NCBI GenBank assembly: GCA_000306725.1
Contig: CP003083.1
Location: forward strand, 310,001-374,000
DNA from: Methanolobus psychrophilus R15
GTDB lineage: Archaea; Halobacteriota; Methanosarcinia; Methanosarcinales; Methanosarcinaceae
Reading direction: 5' to 3'
DNA: 64,000 nt
In this document: positions 1,426-14,221 of the stretch, piece after piece
Position numbering within the stretch: the stretch's first letter is position 1
How the letters are laid out: the number at the start of each line of letters is the position of its first letter
Made by a program: the position numbers and the translations under genes
The notes under the pieces: model-generated
What the model saw: the letters and a program-made list of their open reading frames with translations, nothing else
Databases searched by the model: none
What the model was told of the DNA's origin: nothing

Positions 1426-1803
1426 TCATGAGGTAACCACCAAACTCAACCAAAAAGAAATGAGAATATATGAGAATACATTAAACTGAACCAGCAGCAT
1501 GTACAGCCCGGTACCTGCGAAAATGCTAACCATAACGTTGCGTTTCCACACGTGCAGCGCTGTGACTGAGACTATCGTGAAGAGTTCCGGTGCTCCGTAA
1601 GGAGCCTGGGACCATTGTACATCCTTGAGGCAATAGATAAGCAACAACAGGAGAATCATTGGTGGGAGATTGTTTTCGATGGTCGATAGGAGTTCCGGCG
1701 GTTCTCTTGAGCTGAAGAATACAAAAGGCAGGGCTCTCGTGGCAAATGTAGCCAAGGATACAGCTGCTATAACCACCAGCATATAGGCAGTTTCGTTCAT
1801 CAT
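1426..1803 (-). CDS. azlD: AzlD-like branched-chain amino acid exporter subunit
   Basis: A 125-residue protein with four hydrophobic helices, the usual size and layout of AzlD, the small partner of AzlC in branched-chain amino acid export (AzlCD/YgaZH). Its ATG overlaps the end of azlC by four bases, which indicates translational coupling. The operon is disrupted in this genome because the upstream azlC carries an 8.8-kb insertion. azlD is therefore separated from its native promoter and can only be expressed from a promoter inside the element or in the azlC remnant. The coding sequence itself looks intact. Confidence 0.8.
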   Translation of the reverse strand: MMNETAYMLVVIAAVSLATFATRALPFVFFSSREPPELLSTIENNLPPMILLLLLIYCLKDVQWSQAPYGAPELFTIVSVTALHVWKRNVMVSIFAGTGLYMLLVQFNVFSYILISFWLSLVVTS

Positions 1804-2456
1804 CTCTCCTCCTTTGGAGCAGTTTCAGCAACTGACCGATCTGCATGTTTACTTCTCATAGTCCTCTCATATATCATCAAAATAAAGGTGCCGATAATGA
1901 TAGAAAACAGCAGCATGTTTTCCGGGCTGAAGAGCATAAGAGATATGACACCGGCACCAATTGCCGCCATGAAGGGGAAACGTGTCTTTGAAGCATAATA
2001 CTGCTCAATGGTCAGTACCATAAAGAGTGCGGTCAGCACAAAAGTGAGCCCTTCAAGATTAAGCCTGAGCATAGAACCCAGTACAGCTCCAAGGACTGAA
2101 CCCACTATCCAGTACAGGTGGTCCAGCGCAGATATGTAAAAATAGAACCTGGCCTTTGAAGCTCCTTCCGGGACCCTGGTGGTAGTGAGCAGCGCATAAG
2201 TTTCGTCGGTGAGCGCGAATATGAGGTAGGGCTTGACCTTACCCACGCCGGAGAACTTGTCCAGCAGAGACAGGCCGTAAAAAGAGTGTCTCAGGTTTAT
2301 CAGGAGTGTGACCGTGACAAATTCCATAAGCTGCGCACCCGCTGCCAGCAGCGCCACAGCGATGAACTGTCCCGCTCCGGTATAGACGAATATACTCATC
2401 ACAAGCGCATATATCCAGTGATAACCGGCGCCTGCAAGCAGGAATCCAAAAGCCAT
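1800..2456 (-). pseudogene. azlC: azlC, 3' portion (codons 28-245 of the uninterrupted gene)
   Basis: This 218-codon fragment matches the AzlC branched-chain amino acid exporter from just after the conserved GYIPLG segment: it begins MAFGFLLAGAG and carries the VYTGAGQFIAVALL motif. The missing N-terminal 27 codons lie at 11261-11341, on the other side of the integrated element. Joining the two parts at the shared ATTCCC restores a continuous 245-codon gene reading ...GYIPLGMAFGFLL..., which is a normal AzlC start. The ATG used here is an internal codon formed at the junction. The purine-rich stretch next to it abuts the ATG and is too close to be a normal ribosome binding site. Whether the fragment is translated is unknown. 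Confidence 0.9.
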
Positions 2457-2460: not shown

Positions 2461-2471
2461 CTGGGAATTAA

Positions 2472-2481
2472 CTATTTATTA
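2472..2481 (+). promoter_or_regulatory. TATA-like box for the integrase gene
   Basis: TATTTATTAG lies about 35-44 bases before the integrase ATG and 12 bases inside the left junction. A transcription start about 25 bases downstream would leave a leader of about 15 bases containing AAGGA. The site sits next to attP, so excision and integration would not separate it from the gene. Confidence 0.4.
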
Positions 2482-2515
2482 GTCATATCCCAATATAACA
2501 AAGGAAGCCAAAGAA

Positions 2516-3778
2516 ATGAATAGAAACGACCTTGCTAATGAGCCAACTGTAAAGAAGCTTTTTGCCTTGATATCCCCTGCGGACAGGACCCGCGATAACT
2601 ACCTTTCATCATTGATGCATTATACCGATTTCACCGGGCTTACACCAACGCAGTTAATAGATGAAGCCAACGCAGACATACGCGCAGGCAAGTTAATGAT
2701 TGAACGCGGCGTATTTACAAGGATACCAAACTTTAGGATGCACCTTGAATCAACCAGCTTAACAGGCAGGCCAAGAGCACCCGCGACAGTTCACAAATAC
2801 GTCAATTGCATATCTTCTTTTTATCAAGCGTTTTATGTTGATATCCCAAAGATGCCACGCGGAAGGAACCGGACCAAGCCATTAAAAGAGAATCTTAAGA
2901 GAGCTGACAAGGAAGATATACAGGCATTGCAGGATGTAACCAGCTTAAGAGACAATGCAATTATGCTATGTGGTGTTTCCTCCGGTATGGGAGCGGCAGA
3001 GATAGCAAGCCTTACACTTCAAGCCTTTAAGGAAGGATACGATCCTGCAACGGGGATAACTACCTTTGATATGCGAAGGCGTAAGGTAGGAGTAGATTTT
3101 ATCACTTTCATAAGCCCGGAGGCATCGCAGGCAGTTCTTAAATATATTGAATGGCGTGACAGGCCAGCCACTACAGGCAGACAAGGCGACATTTTAGAGT
3201 ATGAGAAGCGCAGGACCACACCAGGGAGTTATCTCTTTGTATCCGCGAAGGTTGGCAAGGACTATTTACTTACACGCAATGAAGAAAAGCGACAATGCAC
3301 CGCGCATTCTATTGTTAGGATATATCAGAGGATAAGAGCGAATGCAGGATTCGAACGGACACCGGGACATTTCCACCCGGTAAGATCACACAATATGCGC
3401 AAATTCTTTAACAGCAATCTTAAGAATGCGGGATGTGATGGTGATTTAGTGGAGTATTTCATGGGTCACACTTTGGACGGAAGCAAGGGTACATATTATG
3501 AAGGCGATCCCGTAAAGCTCCGCGAGATTTATAAAAAGTTCATTCCCTACATAACGATTAGGAAAGATTTAGATGTTTCTGAATCTCCTGAATATCAGAG
3601 CATAAAGAAGGAAAACGTCATATTGCAGGCAGAGACAGCCCGGCATGTTGTGGAACGTTCGGAATTGTCAGAAATACGCAAGGAAAACGAGGATATGAAA
3701 AATAAGTTAGATGATATGAAAAATATGATAAATGAAGCAATCGCGGCGAAGGTTGCCGAAATGCTGAAAAAGCAATAA
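2516..3778 (+). CDS. Tyrosine recombinase / integrase
   Basis: The 420-residue protein has an N-terminal SAM-like core-binding domain (about 1-125), a catalytic domain (about 140-345) and a C-terminal coiled coil (about 355-420, rich in E, K and M). Catalytic-domain motifs are SHNMRKFF (the HxxR box), FMGHTLDG and the tyrosine motif GTYYEGD. The box I segment reads SSGMGAAEIASL, so the position normally holding the first catalytic Arg appears to be Gly. The gene sits just inside the left junction with AAGGA ahead of the ATG. It very likely integrates and excises the surrounding element. It is full length and not split by the att site, unlike the SSV-type integrases of Sulfolobus. Confidence 0.93.
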   Translation: MNRNDLANEPTVKKLFALISPADRTRDNYLSSLMHYTDFTGLTPTQLIDEANADIRAGKLMIERGVFTRIPNFRMHLESTSLTGRPRAPATVHKYVNCISSFYQAFYVDIPKMPRGRNRTKPLKENLKRADKEDIQALQDVTSLRDNAIMLCGVSSGMGAAEIASLTLQAFKEGYDPATGITTFDMRRRKVGVDFITFISPEASQAVLKYIEWRDRPATTGRQGDILEYEKRRTTPGSYLFVSAKVGKDYLLTRNEEKRQCTAHSIVRIYQRIRANAGFERTPGHFHPVRSHNMRKFFNSNLKNAGCDGDLVEYFMGHTLDGSKGTYYEGDPVKLREIYKKFIPYITIRKDLDVSESPEYQSIKKENVILQAETARHVVERSELSEIRKENEDMKNKLDDMKNMINEAIAAKVAEMLKKQ

Positions 3779-3789
3779 ACTTTTTTCCC

Positions 3790-3817
3790 ATGCGGTGACA
3801 CCTACACCACACCGCAT
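3790..3817 (+). terminator. Hairpin after the integrase gene
   Basis: ATGCGGTG and CACCGCAT form a perfect 8-bp stem with a 12-base loop, starting 12 bases after the integrase stop codon. A run of six T lies just before the stem rather than after it, so it may instead protect the 3' end. Confidence 0.5.
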
Positions 3818-3919
3818 ATTTAAAAATTTTACATTTACGTTTCTATTTCAAATTTAATTTAATCGTGATATACTGACATTGCTATTTTTATAAATATCCA
3901 TTTTATACATTTTTTGCAT

Positions 3920-3962
3920 ATATTATATTAAATTACCCTCATATGAGGGATATTATATTAAA
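3920..3962. repeat. Palindrome CCCTCATATGAGGG between two copies of ATATTATATTAAA
   Basis: The perfect 14-bp palindrome CCCTCATATGAGGG (3936-3949) is flanked on both sides by the direct repeat ATATTATATTAAA, in the 340-base gap between integrase and the RHH gene. The rest of this gap (3818-4074) is AT-rich and I see no gene in it. The symmetry suggests a protein-binding site, perhaps regulatory or part of a replication region. Confidence 0.5.
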
Positions 3963-4074
3963 ATCGTTATGCATTGACTGTATAGTATAAAGTCCTTATG
4001 TAGTATGCGATATATGATTAAACCGCATATAGGCGACGTTGCGAATGCAAACCTTTATTAATTGGACACGTCAC

Positions 4075-4100
4075 ATTATATTTATCATGCGATTATCGCA
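4075..4100 (+). promoter_or_regulatory. Promoter and candidate operator of the RHH gene
   Basis: A TATA-like box (ATTATATTTAT, 4075-4085) is followed at once by the inverted repeat TGCGA-TTA-TCGCA (4088-4100), which ends about 20 bases before the ATG at 4121. A dyad between the TATA box and the probable transcription start is the usual place for a repressor site. Autoregulation by the RHH protein encoded next door is the simplest reading. Confidence 0.45.
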
Positions 4101-4120
4101 CGATTATAGGAAGTGACCCG

Positions 4121-4252
4121 ATGAAACAAAAAATTAGCATTACACTAGATGAAAACGTTATAAACGATATGGATTTGATTAGGAATAACACACCTAGAAG
4201 CACATTTATTAACAGAATGTTGATCAAGACCGTTGTTGAAAACAAATCATAA
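4121..4252 (+). CDS. Small ribbon-helix-helix DNA-binding protein
   Basis: A 43-residue protein beginning MKQKISITLDENVINDMD, followed by STFINRMLIKTV. A basic/alternating beta strand (KISITLDE) followed by two short helices is the classic ribbon-helix-helix (CopG/MetJ-like) layout, at about the minimum size for the fold. AGGAAGTGA precedes the ATG. Proteins like this are common repressors in archaeal plasmids and viruses. A dyad in the promoter region is a likely target. It heads the small-gene cluster that runs to 5685, but a hairpin and a 156-base gap separate it from the next gene. Confidence 0.8.
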   Translation: MKQKISITLDENVINDMDLIRNNTPRSTFINRMLIKTVVENKS

Positions 4253-4270
4253 TCATAAGGGAATAAGTCA

Positions 4271-4305
4271 CCCGTCACTGAATGTTAGCGCATTTCAATG
4301 ACGGG
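4271..4305 (+). terminator. 12-bp stem-loop after the RHH gene
   Basis: CCCGTCACTGAA (4271-4282) pairs with TTCAATGACGGG (4294-4305) with one A.C mismatch and an 11-base loop. It begins 18 bases after the RHH stop codon. There is no T-run immediately after it, so attenuation or mRNA protection is as likely as termination. Confidence 0.5.
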
Positions 4306-4408
4306 AAACCTAAAAGCGGCGCGTTTAACCTCGTTTGCCATGAAAACATATGTTTTTCGTGGTATATTGCTTTTTTGGTTTACCTGACTATTTCCGGGAT
4401 ATTGGAAA

Positions 4409-4531
4409 ATGTCAATTAATGAATTTATAGAACTCGAAGCGCAGAAACGCTATAATGCAATTTTAGAAGAATCGAAGGACACGGGACGCGACCCTTTAGA
4501 AATCGCACGAGCGCAGGGTATAGACGTATGA
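4409..4531 (+). CDS. 40-residue hypothetical protein of the element
   Basis: A short, mostly helical and charged protein (MSINEFIELEAQKRYNAI at the start, EIARAQGIDV at the end). Its stop codon overlaps the ATG of the next gene by four bases (ATGA), the same coupling seen further down the cluster, which is the best support for it being real. GGAAA precedes the ATG. I do not recognise the family. The C-terminal half could be a small helix-turn-helix-like segment (PLEIARAQGI), but it is too short to be sure. Confidence 0.6.
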   Translation: MSINEFIELEAQKRYNAILEESKDTGRDPLEIARAQGIDV

Positions 4532-4779
4532 CTTCAAAGCAAACTATCCTGAGGGCCGTACATCGTACATGTCTTGCATGTTGCGGCAATAGTCGCCGGG
4601 ACGTTCTAAAATGTAAAGTTTTTGATTGTAGCCTGCACCCATACAGAAACGGAACCGACCCTAACCCGAATATAAGCGGCGGGAAGCTGAGAAGCGTATA
4701 TATTGAAGAGTATGAAGAGGACCCGGAAGAATTGGAAGAATCGGAAGCAAGGGGGTCAGTATTTGATGACGATGATTAG
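4528..4779 (+). CDS. Small Cys-rich (zinc-binding) phage/plasmid-type protein
   Basis: The 83-residue protein has a zinc-finger-like N-terminal half: AVHRTCLACCGNSRRDV, then KCKVFDCSLHPYRNG. This C-x2-C...C-x4-C-x-L-x-PYR pattern is seen in a small protein common in bacterial and archaeal prophages. The C-terminal third is strongly acidic (repeated E, D and a DDDD end). It overlaps the preceding gene by four bases and the following gene by 14. A role in nucleic acid binding is inferred from the cysteines; the actual function in these prophages is not established to my knowledge. Confidence 0.75.
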   Translation: MTSKQTILRAVHRTCLACCGNSRRDVLKCKVFDCSLHPYRNGTDPNPNISGGKLRSVYIEEYEEDPEELEESEARGSVFDDDD

Positions 4780-5014
4780 ACGCATGAGGCGGGCCCGCGC
4801 ACAGGTGACAGCCGACAGGGACGAAGCGCGCGGGCAGATATGGGCCCGGCGAGATAAAGACCGGGGAAGAGTAAACCCGTACATTACTATGACCTTCAGA
4901 GTTATAAACCTGACTGTCCACAAATCCAGAGTTAAAGAATTGCAGGACATACGCGCGCAGCGGACGTATACCAACGTACCGCGCAACAATATTTTTACAA
5001 GACCGGAGAAATGA
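4766..5014 (+). CDS. 82-residue basic hypothetical protein
   Basis: A very basic, Arg-rich N-terminal half (RRMRRARAQ and RGQIWARRDKDRGR) is followed by a more ordinary C-terminal half ending PRNNIFTRPEK. I chose the ATG at 4766 over the upstream one at 4703 because GGGGGT lies about 10 bases before it and the overlap with the previous gene shrinks to 14 bases. Its stop overlaps the next ATG by four bases. A nucleic-acid-binding role would fit the charge, but no family is recognised. Confidence 0.6.
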   Translation: MTMIRRMRRARAQVTADRDEARGQIWARRDKDRGRVNPYITMTFRVINLTVHKSRVKELQDIRAQRTYTNVPRNNIFTRPEK

Positions 5015-5685
5015 GAATGATAAACGACAACGAACACGACAACTGGCACAGCCTGACGAACGAACAATTAGAACCCGTTGACGAATACGGCGAGGACTTC
5101 AAGCGGGACTTTTACCGCGTTGCGGATGCATTGAAATGGGATAAAGATAAACCGCCGATAAAGGACAACAGTCAACGACCCGCGGAGTTTATCCGTAAAA
5201 TCATATACGATCACGACGCGGAATATGAAATAGACAGTACCGCAAAGACAACGGACGCTTTATTATTACGTGGCCGTCGCGCATTTCTTAAGCGTCTTGA
5301 CGACATGGAAATGGATGAACTAAGGCAACGCATACGCATGTTTAGAAAAAGCGATGTAGCCGCATGTTATGACCGTGTTAGTATCAATGAATCTGTAGAT
5401 GCTGATATCAATATAAAGACACCAGGATTAAGATATCAGGAGGGAGTTTCAAGAATTGGAAAAAGCAATAGAAATAAGAAGGTGCATTATCACGAAATCG
5501 AAGACATAAAAGAAGTCCTCAAAATACTTGATGCTATCGGACTTGATGCAAGTAAGGGTATTGAGTTCCTTGTATTGTGTGCTATCGAGGGCACGACCTA
5601 TGCAAAAGAAATAGGAGCGCAGGATAGAATAAAGAGAATTGTAGATAGCGTAATGGATGGTATCAAGGACATCATACACGCCTAA
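5011..5685 (+). CDS. 224-residue hypothetical protein, last gene of the element's plus-strand cluster
   Basis: A soluble, mostly helical protein with no signal peptide or membrane segment. GGAGAA precedes the ATG, which overlaps the previous stop by four bases. Visible segments include RAFLKRLDDMEMDELRQ near residue 90 and EDIKEVLKILDAIGLD near residue 168. I do not recognise it. It is the largest non-integrase protein of the cluster and lies directly before the 8-bp repeat arrays, a position often taken by a replication or partition protein. That role is only positional inference: no Walker, helicase, primase or HUH motif is visible. Confidence 0.7.
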   Translation: MRMINDNEHDNWHSLTNEQLEPVDEYGEDFKRDFYRVADALKWDKDKPPIKDNSQRPAEFIRKIIYDHDAEYEIDSTAKTTDALLLRGRRAFLKRLDDMEMDELRQRIRMFRKSDVAACYDRVSINESVDADINIKTPGLRYQEGVSRIGKSNRNKKVHYHEIEDIKEVLKILDAIGLDASKGIEFLVLCAIEGTTYAKEIGAQDRIKRIVDSVMDGIKDIIHA

Positions 5686-5724
5686 TCAAATAAGATGTTC
5701 TTAACTCTCATTACTTTTTTAATA

Positions 5725-5828
5725 GGACATCCGGGCATTAGGGCATTAAGACATTAGGACAACCGGGCATTAGTCCAATAAGACAATAGTCCATTCGGGC
5801 AATTATACAGTCGGGCATTAGTCCACTG
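5725..5828. repeat. Array of thirteen 8-bp degenerate tandem repeats
   Basis: From 5725 the sequence divides exactly into thirteen 8-mers: GGACATCC, GGGCATTA, GGGCATTA, AGACATTA, GGACAACC, GGGCATTA, GTCCAATA, AGACAATA, GTCCATTC, GGGCAATT, ATACAGTC, GGGCATTA, GTCCACTG. The CA at positions 4-5 is kept in all thirteen. The period is exactly 8 with no drift, and frames carry TAG/TAA stops, so it is non-coding. A candidate iteron array or protein-binding platform. Confidence 0.85.
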
Positions 5829-5937
5829 ACCGATTTAATGTTATAATAATGCGATATATAATAATAGAACAATTAACATTATGTATTTTATTATCCTATT
5901 CATAAATGTATAACTTATTTTTATATGAATCGCCTGA
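5829..5937. other. AT-rich segment between the two 8-bp repeat arrays
   Basis: About 110 bases made up mainly of A and T, with runs such as TTATAATAATG and ATATATAATAATAG and no open frame of note. Flanked by repeat arrays on both sides, it has the layout of a DNA-unwinding region of a replication origin, though this has not been tested. Confidence 0.5.
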
Positions 5938-5985
5938 TATCATTAGGGCAGTCGGGCAATAGGGCAATAGGGCAGCCGGGCATAG
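5938..5985. repeat. Second array of 8-bp repeats
   Basis: Six further 8-mers in the same orientation and register: TATCATTA, GGGCAGTC, GGGCAATA, GGGCAATA, GGGCAGCC, GGGCATAG. They share the GGGCA core with the first array 110 bases away. The following region to 6162 is AT-rich with no recognised gene. Confidence 0.8.
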
Positions 5986-6162
5986 TGCCCTAAAGAGTAT
6001 ATAATAGGCAGAATTAAACTTATGTAGAAAAATATAGAATTGGTTTTTAAATATTATAATAATAAAAGAATATATTATATTCCTACATGAACTCAGGACG
6101 CGATAAAACGTCGCTATGGAACATTAAAAATATATTAATATATATAATATATTTGTTATGGG

Positions 6163-6546
6163 TTATTTCATGATGACTTCGGACACTCCCTGACCGCCAC
6201 CACCGCCACCACCGAAGATCAACCATACAATAAGGACGATACCTGCAATTACAAGCATAGGCATCATTAAGGACTTCCATCCGTCCATCCCTAACGCGCG
6301 TCTTATCTTTTCCTTTTCTATAGTTACCTGACCCTGCACGAAGTACGGGTTAGTCTCTTCGATGTAATCACATTGTGCCGTCATGTCAAGACTAATGTTC
6401 TCACGTAGTAGACAATTGTCACCCGCGAACGAAGCACGTATCGTGTTGAAGTCATCTATCGGTAATGTGATCACGTCCGTTCTTCCATCCTGCCGAGTAT
6501 ACCCAACGTCCACCAGTCCATCATTACGCAATACTGCCAAACTCAT
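6163..6546 (-). CDS. Membrane-anchored protein with a C-terminal polyglycine tract
   Basis: The 127-residue protein has a soluble N-terminal part (about 1-90), one hydrophobic helix (about 93-111, MMPMLVIAGIVLIVWLIF), then seven consecutive glycines and a short tail QGVSEVIMK. There is no signal peptide, so the soluble part is likely cytoplasmic with a C-terminal anchor, or this is a small virion-like membrane protein. The glycines are encoded by a 6-bp-like GGT/GGC repeat and may vary in length. It is the last of three tightly packed minus-strand genes (three bases from the previous stop). I recognise no family. Small membrane proteins in this arrangement are common in archaeal viruses, which is only an analogy. 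Confidence 0.65.
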   Translation of the reverse strand: MSLAVLRNDGLVDVGYTRQDGRTDVITLPIDDFNTIRASFAGDNCLLRENISLDMTAQCDYIEETNPYFVQGQVTIEKEKIRRALGMDGWKSLMMPMLVIAGIVLIVWLIFGGGGGGGQGVSEVIMK

Positions 6547-6549
6547 TTC

Positions 6550-6693
6550 TTACCGTCTCCTTGATTTCCCTTTCTTGCATAGTGTCACGGTGACAGGCCC
6601 AGGCATTGCGGGCAACACGCAGACATCAAGGTTACTATTCCCTGTTACTATCGCGGTTTTAATACGCTGTCGCCGTTCGTCCGTGTCTGTCAT
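6550..6693 (-). CDS. 47-residue hypothetical protein
   Basis: A small protein that starts MTDTDERRQRIKTAIVTGNS and ends in a basic tail (KKGKSRRR). It lies one base after the stop of the 29-residue membrane peptide gene and three bases before the start of the 127-residue gene. The spacing on both sides supports a genuine operon. GGAACAAT lies just ahead of the ATG as a weak ribosome binding site. No family recognised. Confidence 0.5.
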   Translation of the reverse strand: MTDTDERRQRIKTAIVTGNSNLDVCVLPAMPGPVTVTLCKKGKSRRR

Positions 6694-6694
6694 A

Positions 6695-6784
6695 CTAATT
6701 GTTCCTTCGGTTGACCAGTATCATAGACCACAAAAGCACCCATAGAACAATTGTGATCAATATGAACCCGGTAAAGTCACACAT
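6695..6784 (-). CDS. 29-residue single-pass membrane peptide
   Basis: The encoded peptide is almost entirely one hydrophobic helix (FILITIVLWVLLWSMILV) with a short polar start MCDFTG and a basic end NRRNN, giving an N-out/C-in or N-in topology that cannot be settled by eye. It is the first of three closely spaced minus-strand genes, ending one base before the next ATG. Very short, so it could be chance; the packing argues for it. Confidence 0.45.
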   Translation of the reverse strand: MCDFTGFILITIVLWVLLWSMILVNRRNN

Positions 6785-7312
6785 ATGTACATAATATGCC
6801 ATCCTTGCACATATGCTTAACTGAAAGAGCATTAATGACCAAAAATGTACAATTTACTGCACATTTAAATAAATTTACAAAGAAAATACCCGATTGCAGC
6901 GCGCCACTGGTTTTTCATACATATTGATACAAAAAGAATAATGTTTCTTCACTCAAAACGAGTTTACGAAGTAGTGCAGGAAACCAGTATAAACCCGCGT
7001 AATAATTACACGCACATACACGTTATAACTGTATACATATATTTGATATGTAGTGTCCTTCGATTGCCTGTATACGCGGATATAGGGGTATTTGATAACA
7101 AAGCAGGAAGATATAAACGGAAAATAGAAAAAGGGATTAAGGGTTTATGTTATCTTTTAAGATAATGATTTAAACGCGCTACAATCGCTTTAAATGAGCT
7201 CATGCGCATAAACACCCGCGCGAACACAAATTAACGCGATACGCGCGGCCAGCGTGAATCCTGTAAGCTAAATAACTGATTAATTCAGCTATGAATTTAA
7301 CAAGTTCATTTT
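6785..7312. other. Gap with no supported gene
   Basis: AT-rich. It contains a TATA-like ATTTAAATAAA near 6863 that could serve the minus-strand small-gene operon. An open frame of 74 codons at 6941-7165 (plus) lacks a ribosome binding site and family resemblance, so I do not call it. The stretch near 7220-7260 is GC-richer (ACCCGCGCG, ACGCGCGG) with no clear structure. Confidence 0.4.
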
Positions 7313-7430
7313 TTAATCAATTATGCAGACGTGCCCGTTTTTCTCTACAAGTTTTAACTCCGTGCCTTTTTCCATCCCTTCAAGACACCGGATACAGGGT
7401 AAATACATGACCATACCATTTTAACATAAG
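7313..7430 (-). pseudogene. Decayed AbrB/SpoVT-like gene, remnant 1
   Basis: The minus strand encodes a C-terminal end reading KGTELKLVEKNGHVCIID and stop. It closely matches the end of the second remnant (KGKELKLVERNGYVCIVEG, 10995-11147). Upstream, the match to the second copy continues only by changing frame: the LKGWKK segment is present in a different frame, and the A-run after GGATGG is shorter than in the other copy. A 33-codon frame from an ATG at 7414 remains open. I read this as a broken duplicate of a small AbrB-type DNA-binding protein gene. Confidence 0.55.
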
Positions 7431-7471
7431 GGCTATAGATAGTGATTCTACAATGTCGAATAGTTACCTTT

Positions 7472-7702
7472 CTATTTCTGCACAATACTAAAAAACAGAC
7501 TCAATATAAATATAAAAATCAATATTAGTAATAATGTAATTGGTTTATTATGGTTTTCATTTTCAGAATTAATACCATTTCCATTTATTCCTGATTGATA
7601 ATTATTGTTTATTTCTAAATATGTATGTTTATTGTATAATTTTTTATAATTGCATTTTTTACATATTAAATAATTGTGATTATGATCATAGGGTATTTTA
7701 AT
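7472..7702 (-). pseudogene. Zinc-ribbon membrane protein gene, 3' part (interrupted by the IS630 element)
   Basis: This part encodes 76 residues: IKIPYDHNHNYLICKKCNY with a CxxC knuckle, a polar Asn-rich middle, and a C-terminal membrane helix (ITLLLILIFIFILSLFF). The first half of the gene, with the other CxxC, lies at 8802-8921 beyond the insertion sequence. Removing the IS and one TA copy joins ...CERCKEEL to IKIPYD... in frame, giving a 116-residue protein with a two-knuckle zinc ribbon and a C-terminal anchor. Four codons from the IS end now precede this part, so a TTG-initiated 80-residue product is possible. Confidence 0.75.
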
Positions 7703-7704
7703 TA

Positions 7705-8801
7705 TAGTGTTCAACGCAACTTACTACACGTATTAATGTTTATCTTATCTTATGGCGGGGAAAGAACAAATTCTGATTGACCGAAAGGTAATTCTCGACG
7801 AGATTAACGATTTGATCACACACGAGAACAATTCAAGAGTGTTGAAAAGGCTCTATTTTGTTAAATTTAGATATTTAGGGGATTCTGTAGAAGAAGCTGC
7901 TATTAAAGTAGGAGTGACTAAGAAAACAGGATATTGCTGGCAAGAAAGTTGGAATAAAGGCGGCTATGCCGCCTTAATGCCAAATTTTGGCGGAGGTAGG
8001 AAATCCAAACTTACTGATGAACAAAAAAAGGAATTAAGAGCTTTGTTGGAAAATAAGGATTACTGGACTACAAGAGAAGTCTGGAAGTTAATAAAGGAAA
8101 AATATGGCGTAGAATATTCAGAGAAACAAGTAGGAGTTATACTTCACAGTTTTAACATGTATCACTCAAAGCCATATCCCCTTGACTACAGAAGACCTAA
8201 AAACGCTGAAGAGATCTTAAAAAAAACTAACCGAAGCAATTCCAAAAAATATTGGTCAAGATGAGCAGTATATCATAGGTTTTCTGGATGAATCTTCACC
8301 ACAAACAAAAGCAAACACGCAAAGATTATGGTCATTTAAAAAACCGTTGATAATAAAAAATACGGATTACGTTAAAGCAAATGCATTTGCGTTTTATTCG
8401 ATCAACGGGAACAGTATCATTGATTTTATGAAAAGCTCAAAAACAGAAGATGTGTGTGAATTCCTGGAAAAAATTGTAGAGCAAAACCCAGGGAAAAGAA
8501 TAATTCTTGTTCTCGATAATGCAAGATCGCATCATGCAAAGAAAACGATAAGTAAAGCGAGAGATTTAAAAATAACACTTGTGTTCCTACCACCTTATTC
8601 ACCTGATCTAAATCCAGTAGAATTTGTCTGGAAAACAATCAAAAGAGAAGTGTCAGTCAAATTTGTCAAATCAAAAGAACATTTGAGGAATATTATCAAA
8701 ATGGAATTTATGAGGATAGAGAGCTCATTATCGTTTGCAAAAAAATGGATAGAAACATTTAATGCACAAATAAAAAGTGTGATTTGTTGAGTTAGGGACT
8801 A
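7705..8801 (+). mobile_element. IS630-family insertion sequence, 1097 bp
   Basis: The ends are TAGTGTTCAACGCAAC (left) and, read inward from the right, TAGTCCCTAACTCAAC: 16-bp imperfect inverted repeats with 11 matches. A TA dinucleotide flanks each end (7703-7704 and 8802-8803), the target duplication typical of IS630/Tc1-mariner elements. Precise removal rebuilds an uninterrupted host reading frame, which fixes the ends. It contains a single transposase gene in two frames. Confidence 0.88.
7752..8790 (+). CDS. IS630-family transposase, in two frames joined at an A8 run
   Basis: The first frame (7752-8264) encodes the N-terminal helix-turn-helix/winged-helix part. The second frame, which continues to 8790, encodes the DDE catalytic domain with Asp in IGFLDESSP, Asp in ILVLDNARSHH and Glu in PDLNPVEFVW. 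All three catalytic residues are present. The frames join at eight A's (8219-8226): a +1 shift there gives EILKK-LTEAIPKNIGQDEQ, the expected continuous protein of about 345 residues. With seven A's the gene would be in one frame. Programmed slippage on the A-run, as known in other IS families, and a simple inactivating insertion are both possible. Confidence 0.85.
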
Positions 8802-8921
8802 TAATTCTTCTTTGCATCTTTCGCAAATAAATAAATCAGTTATTTTTCTAAAATCAGAATTTTCCCGTAACATCTTTCTTGAAAGTTTTTCATCAAACCA
8901 CTTATCATTATTTTTCCCCAC
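8802..8921 (-). pseudogene. Zinc-ribbon membrane protein gene, 5' part
   Basis: A GTG start with GGGTGAT just ahead of it opens a 40-codon frame ending ITDLFICERCKEEL at the IS boundary, where the next codon (TAG) comes from the insertion sequence. The CERC knuckle pairs with the CKKC knuckle in the 3' part to form a plausible zinc ribbon. The rest of the gap (8922-9093) is AT-rich and shows no gene. Confidence 0.7.
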
Positions 8922-9093
8922 AATATCACCCTACTTTTTTACATACTAGATTTCTGGGTTATATTCGACACATTTTGTGTGTACTGTATATTAACATAAT
9001 GATTTATGTTTGGATTAGTGTAATCTCTATCTACTAAAGACATTCCCAAACCTCTATGATTATCTCATGCTCCTATATTGGAAGCAAAAAAAG

Positions 9094-9116
9094 AGAGAAG
9101 GTTTATTGCCTTCTCT
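9094..9116 (-). terminator. Hairpin plus T-run after the PEF-CTERM gene
   Basis: On the minus strand AGAGAAGG-GCAATAAA-type sequence forms an 8-bp stem (AGAGAAGG with CCTTCTCT, 7-base loop) followed at once by TCTTTTTTT. The stem overlaps the stop codon of the surface-protein gene, so the last codons are part of the hairpin. Confidence 0.65.
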
Positions 9117-10632
9117 TAAAGAACAGAGCTAGTCCTAGAATTGCTATCATGGGGAGTGCAATTGTGGGGAACTCTGGGATTTCTTGAGAACCACCATTTC
9201 CTCCATTGTTGCTGCTGCCATCGCTGCAAGCCATCCATATGCTTTCAGGTGCTCCTGGCAATCTTGTAACGTGGAGAACAACAGAATATCCATTATCATT
9301 CTTCGGTAGCACACCATCCCATTCACAATCAACGATAATTTTTACATATTGCACTGTCTGCTGATTACCGGGTGCCCTGTCGACCTGGGTTAGCATTGCA
9401 CCAAAACCCGCATTGCCCTCACCTTTATCTTCCTCCCATTCCCATTCAACATTTGTATTATCAGACTCAACACCTAAAATACAATCGGGATCGATATTTA
9501 GCAATATTGTCTTGATGTTTCCAGATCCGATTGGTTCAAGTAGCTCAATCTCAATTGAGTTTGTAAATGTTTTAACAGAAATGTTGATGTTACCATTGTA
9601 ATATTCGTTTGTATTTTTCTCTGTCAGGTAACAGGTTGTTATTGGGGATACACTCACCACTTGTGCAGGATTTCCATTCAATTCAAATATGAAGCTTCCC
9701 GGATAAGAATAGATTATTCCATTATTATAGACAGGCCCCAACAAACCGCCGTAATTGTGAATGGTATTGTGATTGTAGACGTAAAAAGACAACGTCCCTC
9801 GATTGAACAGTGTGCCACTATTGCTAATGCTGTATCCGTCTACCGTACCGTTGTTATAAAAATTGCCACTGTTCATTACTTCGCCTATAATATGTTCGTT
9901 GTGGAAAGTGCCGGTGTTACTTACATACATTTCTACCGTTCCATAATTGTAGACAATTCCGTGGTTATCTAAACCCCATGCCAGCGTTCCAGTGTTGCAA
10001 ATGGTCCCCGTATTTTGAATCTTGCCGTTGAACATACCGTGGTTATATATTTCTCCACTTCCCTCCACTGTGTAGCTCGAATTAAACACCCCGGTGTTGT
10101 TAATTGTTCCTTCATTTCCCACATCAAAGTGCGTAGAAAACGTGTTGAGGTTATTCAGCATTCCGTTGTTTGTTAACCTTTCATAAATGGCCATGTGCCC
10201 AGCGTTATCAATGGTGCCATTGTTTGTAAGGTACCATATGCCAACTGCGCCACCTGGTAACACACTAAGGTTATTGTAATTCAGAAAACTGGTGGGTGCT
10301 CCCCCGAAAATTCCAGTTACCTGCATGTTACCATAGTTTCTAACAAAGAGTGAATCTCCATAAAAGGTTCCACCCAACTCAAGTGAACCGCCATTGTCAA
10401 TTACGATCTCGGGCTGATTCATCCCTTGTAGGGCCCCACCGGGCTCCACTATTAGTTTCCCACCCGGCTGGATTATGAATGGGCCGTGATCAATATATAG
10501 GATATCTCCGTCTCCTACCACAAAGGTTTCCCCGTCAGCAATTGTACCCGGATTTGTCAATTCGGCTGCACTTACCATCCCACATAGCGAGATGAGCACA
10601 GCTATTACAATCATATATATTTTCATTTTCAA
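9103..10632 (-). CDS. Secreted beta-solenoid surface protein with PEF-CTERM anchor
   Basis: The 509-residue protein starts with a signal peptide (about 1-22, ending MVSAAE). Residues about 110-325 consist of some ten loosely repeated units of 16-22 residues built on N-x-G-T-(IVL)-x-N-x-G, as expected for a right-handed beta-solenoid. A globular domain follows (about 330-470). The end has IPEFPTIALPM, a hydrophobic stretch and KRRQ, a PEF-CTERM sorting signal (PEF at 486-488) handled by an archaeosortase. GGAAGGT precedes the ATG. It lies inside the mobile element as probable cargo: a surface or adhesion protein. Its intactness inside an otherwise decaying right half is notable. Confidence 0.85.
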   Translation of the reverse strand: MKMKIYMIVIAVLISLCGMVSAAELTNPGTIADGETFVVGDGDILYIDHGPFIIQPGGKLIVEPGGALQGMNQPEIVIDNGGSLELGGTFYGDSLFVRNYGNMQVTGIFGGAPTSFLNYNNLSVLPGGAVGIWYLTNNGTIDNAGHMAIYERLTNNGMLNNLNTFSTHFDVGNEGTINNTGVFNSSYTVEGSGEIYNHGMFNGKIQNTGTICNTGTLAWGLDNHGIVYNYGTVEMYVSNTGTFHNEHIIGEVMNSGNFYNNGTVDGYSISNSGTLFNRGTLSFYVYNHNTIHNYGGLLGPVYNNGIIYSYPGSFIFELNGNPAQVVSVSPITTCYLTEKNTNEYYNGNINISVKTFTNSIEIELLEPIGSGNIKTILLNIDPDCILGVESDNTNVEWEWEEDKGEGNAGFGAMLTQVDRAPGNQQTVQYVKIIVDCEWDGVLPKNDNGYSVVLHVTRLPGAPESIWMACSDGSSNNGGNGGSQEIPEFPTIALPMIAILGLALFFKRRQ

Positions 10633-10994
10633 CCAACCTTCCTAATCTATGCAGGACTATCCTGCAATTCCAATAAAATGGAAACTATCTTACTTGCTTA
10701 TTAATGTTTCTAAATTATTTTCACTCACTAATATAACTTAATAATTATCAAATCCGAATGTTAAGGTTTCAACTTTCCTTTATATACTCAAAAACCACGA
10801 CATCACGTTATGATATTTCTTCAAAGAAATAAACTCTTACAAATGTTTGATCCCTAAAAGTAGACTAACAACTTAATATACGAAGGAGTGATTTTAAACT
10901 CGTTTACTCAACAGGATTCAGCGCAAGAAGCTTCGTAAAACACCCATATTGAACTATTGAAGACAAGTTAGGACAGCATACACCCCAATCCATG
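10633..10994. other. Gap upstream of the PEF-CTERM gene
   Basis: AT-rich sequence that should hold the promoter of the surface-protein gene (minus strand). I see no gene. The part near 10960-11010, read on the plus strand, resembles the tail of a tyrosine recombinase (EDKLGQHTPQSMLSFYN) but is only about 20 codons long and follows a stop codon. Confidence 0.35.
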
Positions 10995-11147
10995 TTATCC
11001 TTCTACAATGCAAACATACCCGTTTCTTTCAACAAGTTTAAGCTCTTTTCCTTTTTTCCATCCCTTTAAAGTGCAGATATCTTTTGAGATCGTAAGCGTA
11101 AATTGTCCGTTCTTATTCTCTTGTAAAACTGCTATAATATCACACCC
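10995..11147 (-). pseudogene. AbrB/SpoVT-like small DNA-binding protein, remnant 2
   Basis: An open frame of 50 codons reads IIAVLQENKNGQFTLTISKD, then a GWKKGKELKLVERNGYVC segment. This is the swapped-hairpin AbrB/MazE/SpoVT pattern (N-G-Q-x-T-L-x-I-x-K-D). No ATG, GTG or TTG start is present before the in-frame stop at 11148-11150, so it is either a 5'-truncated gene or uses an unusual start. It lies about 110 bases from the right junction of the element and is homologous to remnant 1 at 7313. Confidence 0.55.
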
Positions 11148-11258
11148 TTAAATCTAATATTAATCTTAATATTAGAAGTAATAGTATTTATTCTTAATCG
11201 AATGTTCAACATTGACATGAGCATATAAAGATAATGGGATATACCCAAAGTTATAAAT

Positions 11259-11264
11259 ATTCCC
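11259..11264. repeat. attR: 6-bp direct repeat ATTCCC at the right end of the element
   Basis: The right-hand copy of the junction sequence. To its right the chromosome continues with AGGGGGATATAGCC, the azlC codons for GYIPL on the minus strand. Over 14 bp the two att copies match at 11 positions (ATTCCC-CT-GGGAAT versus ATTCCC-AG-GGGGAT). Confidence 0.85.
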
Positions 11265-11341
11265 AGGGGGATATAGCCAAAGAAAACCGGGAGCGTTGTC
11301 CTGAGTGCGCTCAGGAAGAGTTTTTCACTCTCATGGGTCAT
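11261..11341 (-). pseudogene. azlC: azlC, 5' portion (codons 1-27)
   Basis: The minus strand encodes MTHESEKLFLSALRTTLP and then VFFGYIPLG, the standard AzlC N-terminus, ending exactly at the attR core. Beyond the junction the frame runs on into element sequence to a stop at 11132, giving a 69-residue chimeric frame of no evident meaning. The native azlCD promoter must lie upstream of here (11342-11501), so transcripts from it would enter the element from its right side. Confidence 0.9.
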
Positions 11342-13435: not shown

Positions 13436-14221
13436 CTAAATGGTAGTTATCAATGTCGAATCCATTTTATAGTATTCAAAGAGGTCTTTTCCCCATTCAA
13501 GTGCACTCCTGCTATAAGAGATCAGTTCTTTGTTATCATACCATCCATCCTTTTTCAACATGGTCACTAAAAGACAATAGTCATTCAATGAAAAGAACAC
13601 AAAGCGAAAAGGTTTGCAATAGAGGCGGAACTCAATGTTACTGTTCTCCAGTAAATGCTGGAAGTCACTGGGATTATGCGTCCTCAGTTTCTCGAAGAGT
13701 TCTTCCGAGAGGATCATTGTAATCTTTGCGCCATTTCGCGTCCATTGATCAAACAGATCCATAAAATTGGGATGAAATATTGTAGTAACAGCGCACATCC
13801 TTTCTGATGATGATGTCGTTTCAGTGAACTCCTTGTTCAGTTCATGGATGTTGGATATCGATGGCTCATTTATTGTATACGGCTCTAGCTCCCGAATCCT
13901 GTTCAGCATTTCAGGAGGGAGAAAACCCAGCTCTCGCTCTCCCCAGAAATCAATGTTATGATCCAGTACATTTAATGTGGCTACAAAAGGCGCCATTTCA
14001 TCGACAATGATCTTTGATATAGAAGTTAATTCATATTTATCGCCGCGGCGACTGATCAGATAGTTCTCTTCCAGTATCTTCAATTGTGGAAGTAATGCCT
14101 GCCGGGTGGTATTCATGGATTGCAGCAGCGTTGTTATCTCTTTAGGCCCTTCCTGCAGCAAAAGCAATGAGCTTTTCCGTTTCTCAGACGCAAAGATGAC
14201 ATCAAGTAGCGGTTTCTTCAT
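13436..14221 (-). CDS. Msr-type transcriptional regulator (wHTH + DUF1724/FilR1)
   Basis: A 261-residue paralog of the regulator at 11-796, identical in length: winged helix at about 1-90 (LLQSMNTTRQALLPQLKILEE) and DUF1724/FilR1 domain at about 110-255, ending WGKDLFEYYKMDSTLITTI. The family regulates methyltransferase genes in Methanosarcina; the targets here are unknown. It is bracketed by two copies of a candidate structured RNA: copy 1 ends 118 bases beyond its 3' end and copy 2 begins about 145 bases before its start on the opposite strand. That arrangement recalls the M. mazei sRNA162 case, in which an sRNA acts on neighbouring regulator mRNAs, but no sequence relation is shown. Confidence 0.87.
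   Translation of the reverse strand: MKKPLLDVIFASEKRKSSLLLLQEGPKEITTLLQSMNTTRQALLPQLKILEENYLISRRGDKYELTSISKIIVDEMAPFVATLNVLDHNIDFWGERELGFLPPEMLNRIRELEPYTINEPSISNIHELNKEFTETTSSSERMCAVTTIFHPNFMDLFDQWTRNGAKITMILSEELFEKLRTHNPSDFQHLLENSNIEFRLYCKPFRFVFFSLNDYCLLVTMLKKDGWYDNKELISYSRSALEWGKDLFEYYKMDSTLITTI

Follow-up and report, generated by a model that had tools for sequence, protein, structure and literature searches.

An integrated element in azlC of Methanolobus psychrophilus carries the gene for a predicted β-solenoid protein with a PEF-CTERM tail, a candidate substrate of the host archaeosortase C

Introduction

Proviruses are well known to change the surface of their bacterial hosts. PEF-CTERM proteins are processed and anchored by an archaeosortase, and the autotransporters TibA and Ag43 have a role in aggregation. 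Within the genus Methanolobus, inoviruses of Methanolobus profundi are described in one report (PMC6813254), and a related idea, the carriage by Methanoperedens plasmids of a large, plasmid-specific surface protein, is found in another (PMC9674854); a table entry in a third source (PMC7465815) is unrelated. A search of the open-licence literature, made with narrow terms and from which subscription journals are mostly absent, returned no paper in which archaeal proviruses encode proteins that depend on an archaeosortase. Genes of prophages that change the cell surface are thus of a known kind, and it is the use of an archaeosortase that is the new part of the case described here.

We describe an 8.8-kb element, integrated into azlC, that carries a gene (9103–10632, minus strand) for a predicted β-solenoid protein with a PEF-CTERM tail. 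Like phage moron, or lysogenic-conversion, genes, it stands singly in an integrated element and has a terminator to itself, and a similar gene in a second genome (G009) is read against the direction of the virion genes around it. The lone gene with its terminator in the element, and the G009 gene set against its virion operon, look like moron genes by this analogy. The window gene differs from phage morons in its archaeal host and in the predicted anchoring of its product by the host archaeosortase. With the substrates of archaeosortase C (TIGR03024 for the tail, TIGR03762 for the enzyme) the product shares a tail over the curated cut-off, a signal-like N-terminus and the presence of an archaeosortase C (ArtC) gene in the genome; those found here are mostly chromosomal, however, whereas the window gene lies inside an integrated element. 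In methanogens, genes whose products are predicted to be archaeosortase-anchored are carried here by an integrated element and by a tailed provirus, and such elements may change the exterior of the host. If this is true, whether archaeal viruses alter the surface of their hosts could be tested simply, with one gene, one anchoring enzyme and one genus.

Results

The window, by which we mean the whole stretch of 64,000 nucleotides analysed (G000:C1:310001–374000), comes from a single-contig genome of 3.07 Mb in the genus Methanolobus, and was compared across 27 Methanolobus genomes (its own and 26 others). RuBisCO is found in 27/27 of these and azlC in 12, the last as a fragment only. In five other genomes (G022, G016, G024, G006 and G011) azlC adjoins RuBisCO at a distance of 0.2–1.5 kb, against 9 kb in the window. 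The gene is uninterrupted in all five, and in five more divergent relatives in which it lies elsewhere, and is in two pieces in the window, split at about codon 28. The first ~27 codons (11261–11341, minus strand) are found between the element and RuBisCO, and the downstream part, corresponding to residues ~24–245 of the intact gene (1800–2456, minus strand; 1803–2468 when the core is counted in), lies beyond the left junction. When aligned to G022, the flanks of the window end at 2468 and 11258 and join at L029:2403–2417, with equivalents in the other relatives (L029–L033). At the left junction, inside azlC, lies an attachment core that reads ATTCC-CCTG-GGAAT on the plus strand (2455–2468); at the right junction the core recurs with one arm differing by a base (11259–11272). 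The comparison with the empty sites (L029–L033) places between the cores an insertion of 8790 bp (2469–11258). The PEF-CTERM gene is located between both cores, 0.6 kb from the right junction. Because a 1.5-kb gene would not fit into the gap between RuBisCO and azlC in the relatives, and because of the junction cores and the split azlC, the gene lies inside the 8790-bp insertion, and it is almost certainly cargo of the integrated element. The first-pass annotation had proposed as much, and the empty site in the relatives and the core common to both junctions bear it out; moreover, the same gene at the same place, which would have marked it as chromosomal, is found in none of the five element-free relatives in which azlC adjoins RuBisCO.

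The reading frame at 9103–10632 is open over 509 codons from a TTG at 10632, and over 507 from the likelier start, an ATG at 10626. The predicted 507-residue product (hereafter, the PEF protein) has a signal-like segment (residues ~1–20), a solenoid (~30–310), a β-rich domain (~324–465) and a PEF-CTERM tail (~483–507). The tail matches TIGR03024 of NCBIfam at residues 485–508 (E 6.4e-7; 29.4 bits against a cut-off of 23), and the protein has no match over cut-off in Pfam or the PHROGs. Its two most hydrophobic 15-residue windows fall at residues 1–21 and 488–503, and the hydrophobic helix at the C-terminus is followed by KRRQ. The solenoid region contains nine N-x-G-T motifs against a mean of 0.54 in 5000 residue shuffles, none of which was as high, and 14 motifs of the form N-x-G-[TIVML] against a shuffle mean of 2.1 (14 was reached in 0/5000); its strongest autocorrelation is at 16 residues. 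A terminator-like hairpin of eight pairs, with a loop of seven and then a T-run (9094–9116, minus strand), lies at the stop codon; the terminator scan of the region is not significant by itself (one site against a shuffle mean of 1.5), but the site sits on the stop codon of the gene. The signal peptide, the N-x-G-T repeats, the PEF-CTERM tail and the intact frame with its own terminator had all been noted from the sequence beforehand, and all were recovered here, the first as a signal-like segment and the terminator as a terminator-like hairpin. About 25 bp upstream of the ATG, a perfect inverted repeat, GCAGGA-N3-TCCTGC (10651–10665), read directly from the sequence, is a possible operator or 5′-UTR hairpin.

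The same genome encodes an archaeosortase C (TIGR03762; G000:723050–723865; 315 bits against a cut-off of 100). Because of what is known of PEF-CTERM proteins, and because the ArtC gene is present in the genome, surface anchoring is the likely fate of the PEF protein, and we consider it very probable that the host ArtC would anchor it on the cell surface. The earlier suggestion that the tail needs the host archaeosortase agrees with this, by inference from the presence of the gene.

The fold was modelled with AlphaFold2 from the single sequence, with a mean pLDDT of 52 and a pTM of 0.42; pLDDT reaches ~65–82 in residues 31–100 and 191–290. In the model, a ladder of short strands runs over residues 34–307 and a C-terminal helix spans 493–506. 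Foldseek returned no match below E 0.001 for either of the two models submitted. When the Foldseek candidates were realigned, the adhesin TibA was best, with a Z score of 16.4 over 250 residues and an rmsd of 4.4 in what is a low-confidence, single-sequence model; phage tailspikes came next (Z ~12–16), all of them right-handed β-helices, and Ag43 was also among the matches (Z 9.9, rmsd 15.3). With TibA-type adhesins and tailspikes, the PEF protein shares the predicted short-strand ladder (Z 16.4 for TibA and about 14 for the tailspikes), but it ends in a sorting tail rather than in an autotransporter barrel or a virion foot; no sequence relation to solved structures is detectable. The β-solenoid of the first-pass annotation is tentatively supported as a fold, at modest model quality, by the repeat statistics, the strand ladder and the structural matches. 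The modelled solenoid appears to resemble the general right-handed β-helix, a common fold that shows no function.

No full-length relative of the PEF protein appears among the matches listed for 60 relative genomes. Its N-terminal half matches several Methanolobus genomes, down to E 6e-16 and, for weaker matches, up to 1. In 10 neighbourhoods of these solenoid relatives, read by eye and some of them on short contigs, no integrase or virion gene was recognised; the neighbours include uvrA (G007, G001 and G023) and an aminotransferase (G018), and the neighbourhoods look chromosomal. Proteins akin to the C-terminal domain (54–59% identity) are the stand-alone PEF-CTERM products of an array that is conserved on the chromosomes of G022, G006 and G011, and the C-terminal part of a NosD-type β-helix protein of M. 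vulcani (L157/L135, 693 residues). The latter resembles the PEF protein in that a β-helix is followed by the same C-terminal domain (59% identical) and then by a PEF-type tail; it differs in that its β-helix is of another family (NosD), its gene is chromosomal with glycan genes around it, and its tail, at 21.6 bits, narrowly misses the cut-off of 23. From these sequence relationships we read the protein as a module made up of a variable rod, an adaptor and an anchor. In the array of the window's own genome (L138, G000:C1:2016122–2021340), two large proteins and a single PEF-CTERM gene are encoded, but not the stand-alone C-domain gene of G022 and G006; the C-domain missing from this array is the one carried by the element. 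PEF-CTERM genes number 11–14 per genome in 5/6 genomes counted.

A strict PEF pattern had no match in viral databases, and a looser one had three, none reading as a PEF tail. Protein searches of IMG/VR viral contigs found no relative of the PEF protein, nor did a search of a phage collection, in which no Methanolobus virus with it was seen. A plasmid search gave two weak matches to bacterial repeat proteins. Genome contigs searched with the single PEF protein gave no relative; searched with an alignment of the C-domain, they gave 32 loci, most of them matching the tail only.

The element also encodes, beside one junction, a tyrosine integrase of 420 residues with an open frame (2516–3778, plus strand), supported by PF00589 (E 2.4e-9), PHROG 216 (E 4.5e-17) and the family alignment. 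An arginine is expected in the box-I motif of tyrosine integrases. In 13/13 aligned integrases (that of the window and 12 related ones), box I reads SG[ML]xA-like without the usual arginine, whereas HNMR and the tyrosine region further on are conserved. A 40-residue ORF (4409–4531, plus strand) has a similar ORF beside each of the two closest integrases (those of a second element in the same genome and of G015). A 224-residue ORF (5011–5685, plus strand) has no relative below E 0.001 in the 26 other genomes of the genus. The only relative of a 127-residue ORF with one C-terminal hydrophobic segment (6163–6546, minus strand) is a distant one in G002, beside a Zot-type P-loop ATPase; this ATPase is similar, too, to a DnaA-like protein of Haloferax virus LSV-48N. 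Between two ORFs of the element, at 5720–5825 and 5933–5990, are blocks of an 8-bp repeat (CATTAGGG-like), which on their sequence could be iterons of a replication origin. An IS630-type copy with similar ends at TA (7703–8803, plus strand) has its transposase in two frames (7752–8264 and about 8255–8790) that part at a run of eight A, and it interrupts an 80-residue minus-strand ORF (7472–7714/8799–8921). The neighbours of the PEF-CTERM gene had been described as broken; this holds for the interrupted ORF but not for the integrase, open over its 420 codons. The step from an intact gene among broken neighbours to selection is not supported, given a single copy, no full-length relative and one ORF of the element clearly interrupted. 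Seven window proteins scanned against the PHROGs gave no virion or packaging match, so that the element is not classed as a complete provirus; it could be a virus or a plasmid, in either case small or reduced. A filamentous-virus origin is possible, given the relative of the 127-residue ORF beside a Zot-type ATPase, but the inovirus region of M. profundi (L219) and the four other Zot-type regions searched share no ORF with the element beyond chance. Zot matches, found in 23/27 genomes, include many ordinary P-loop proteins.

A comparable gene, that of an eleventh solenoid relative, lies in a tailed provirus of G009, a sister species (G009:C89 47754–48599, plus strand). Its product has a PEF-CTERM tail over the cut-off (E 5.2e-7) and N-terminal similarity to the window protein (E 1.8e-7). 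On one side are the tail genes, on the minus strand (tape measure, E 2.8e-15; neck, E 1.5e-22), and on the other are head genes (E 5.6e-13 and 1.6e-5) with the terminase beyond (PF03237, E 5.2e-31); because the tail genes and the head and terminase genes are on opposite sides, the PEF-CTERM gene is inside the provirus. Four of the 10 provirus proteins scanned, the PEF-CTERM protein among them, have no PHROG match. Beside this gene (L105:7119–9635; G009:C89 45119–47635) is one for an 838-residue DNRLRE and β-helix protein whose N-terminus is signal-like and whose C-terminus has a hydrophobic segment, by its sequence a possible second surface protein of the provirus. A 2463-residue S-layer-family gene with a PGF-pre-PGF domain (G009:C89 26205–33596; L104) comes directly before the start of the provirus integrase, and the provirus may use the end of this S-layer-type gene as its insertion site.

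A weaker case is that of G002, a third species, in which two PEF-CTERM genes lie within 7 kb of an integrase 52% identical to that of the window. Their assignment to the inside of an element was not retained, as the far border was not found and the gene expected beyond it (as in G015 and G004) was not found in 676–738 kb. The surroundings (G002:C1:676001–728000) make up a mobile island of 50 kb, which contains several pieces of integrases along with restriction genes, a Cas1-like ORF and, beside the Zot-type ATPase, a cluster of small membrane proteins. In the window's own genome, the second element (integrase at G000:1103648, 65% identical) has a PEF-CTERM gene 12 kb off, which lies on the outer side of the core, among ribosomal-protein genes, and is not cargo. 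This element (G000:C1:1103648–1104969; L102) has the same form of core and abuts an ATPase-like ORF apparently without its N-terminal part; the integrase group may often target protein-coding genes. The form ATTCC-N4-GGAAT, which was found in 3/13 regions scanned, two of the three adjoining an integrase, occurs here 38 bp from the start of the integrase most similar to that of the window.

At three of the eight sites of the closest integrases (at least 44% identity), namely those of the window, G009 and G002, a PEF-CTERM gene is found on the element side at a distance of up to 15 kb, and the other five have none in reach; in G015 there is no PEF-CTERM gene in the whole genome. The per-genome gene density predicts 0.40 sites (P 0.005; without the window, 2/7 and P 0.04), which, with a 15-kb limit set after the data were seen and the G002 border not found, is a hint of enrichment near related integrases. 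Whether homologs of the gene are carried by elements or on chromosomes, a check proposed at the outset, has a divided answer: one is in a tailed provirus and two are near an integrase in G002, and the 10 neighbourhoods of solenoid relatives and the C-domain array look chromosomal.

Discussion

We propose that a tyrosine integrase inserted the 8.8-kb integrative element, with the PEF-CTERM gene as cargo, into azlC. The product would be secreted as a right-handed β-helix-like rod, joined through a β-rich adaptor domain, of a family that is chromosomally encoded in the genus, to the PEF-CTERM tail; the host archaeosortase C would then cut the tail and anchor the protein on the cell surface. There it would most likely change the surface of the carrier, through adhesion, aggregation or the hiding of a receptor from viruses, and the element would gain from this. 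Taken as a whole, this account of a surface cargo borne by an element, anchored by the host ArtC and altering the carrier, is in our judgement probable. From the signal-like start, the tail and the ArtC gene we infer secretion, cleavage and anchoring; we incline to the view that the element benefits through the surface change, and as to which property of the surface changes, we offer a guess and make no firm choice between adhesion and exclusion.

One possibility, somewhat less likely than not, is that the rod acts like the β-helix passenger of the self-associating autotransporters TibA and Ag43, and that carriers clump or attach. This analogy draws on the structural matches, in which the solenoid model scores highest against TibA (Z 16.4 over 250 residues, rmsd 4.4) and Ag43 is listed as well (Z 9.9, rmsd 15.3). 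The tailspikes, however, score nearly as high (Z 12–16), as expected of a general right-handed β-helix, and the model is weak.

It is also conceivable, if unlikely, that the gene is a passive passenger, a chromosomal surface-protein gene picked up by chance, neutral, and intact only through the recency of the insertion. Relatives of both halves of the protein are chromosomal, and with 11–14 PEF-CTERM genes in each of 5/6 genomes, pick-up would be easy; moreover, constraint is not measurable on one copy. Yet a similar gene is found inside a tailed provirus, and two others near a related integrase, and the frame of 507 codons is still open although the element has meanwhile gained an IS copy.

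Superinfection exclusion, in which the anchored rod would cover a receptor or take its place and so keep related viruses from adsorbing, strikes us as less likely than not. Proviruses and integrative elements do carry surface-protein genes, and the anchoring route is present. In PMC6813254, exclusion is reported for 2/10 tested filamentous-phage genes in Pseudomonas, and not for archaea. No Methanolobus virus with the PEF protein was found in the phage collection, however, and the best structural neighbour of the rod is an adhesin.

Returning to the account of an anchored, element-borne cargo, it could extend beyond this locus. Archaeosortase-anchored β-solenoids might constitute a recurrent class of moron in Methanolobus proviruses and elements, in which a swappable rod on an anchor of a host family recoats the cell, blocking rival viruses or clumping carriers; this generalization is speculative and less likely than not.

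Finally, that the gene is native to this place in the chromosome and the integrase merely integrated next to it is highly improbable, for although it lies 0.6 kb from the right junction and adjoins RuBisCO, it is between both cores, and in five relatives the RuBisCO–azlC gap is 0.2–1.4 kb and azlC is whole.

The insertion site has some further features. On the plus strand, the spacer of the core is CCTG at the left junction (2455–2468) and CAGG at the right (11259–11272), and the empty site of the relatives matches the right; the element may have used a spacer that does not match its target, or it may sit inverted relative to a matching core. The downstream piece of azlC begins at an ATG (2456) directly behind AGGGGA from the junction, a sequence arrangement from which a shortened AzlC might be made after the insertion. 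Two similar winged-helix-like regulators of 261 residues (11–796 and 13436–14221) flank the azlC–RuBisCO region, and in G002 the two PEF-CTERM genes have a third such relative between them (721725–722510).
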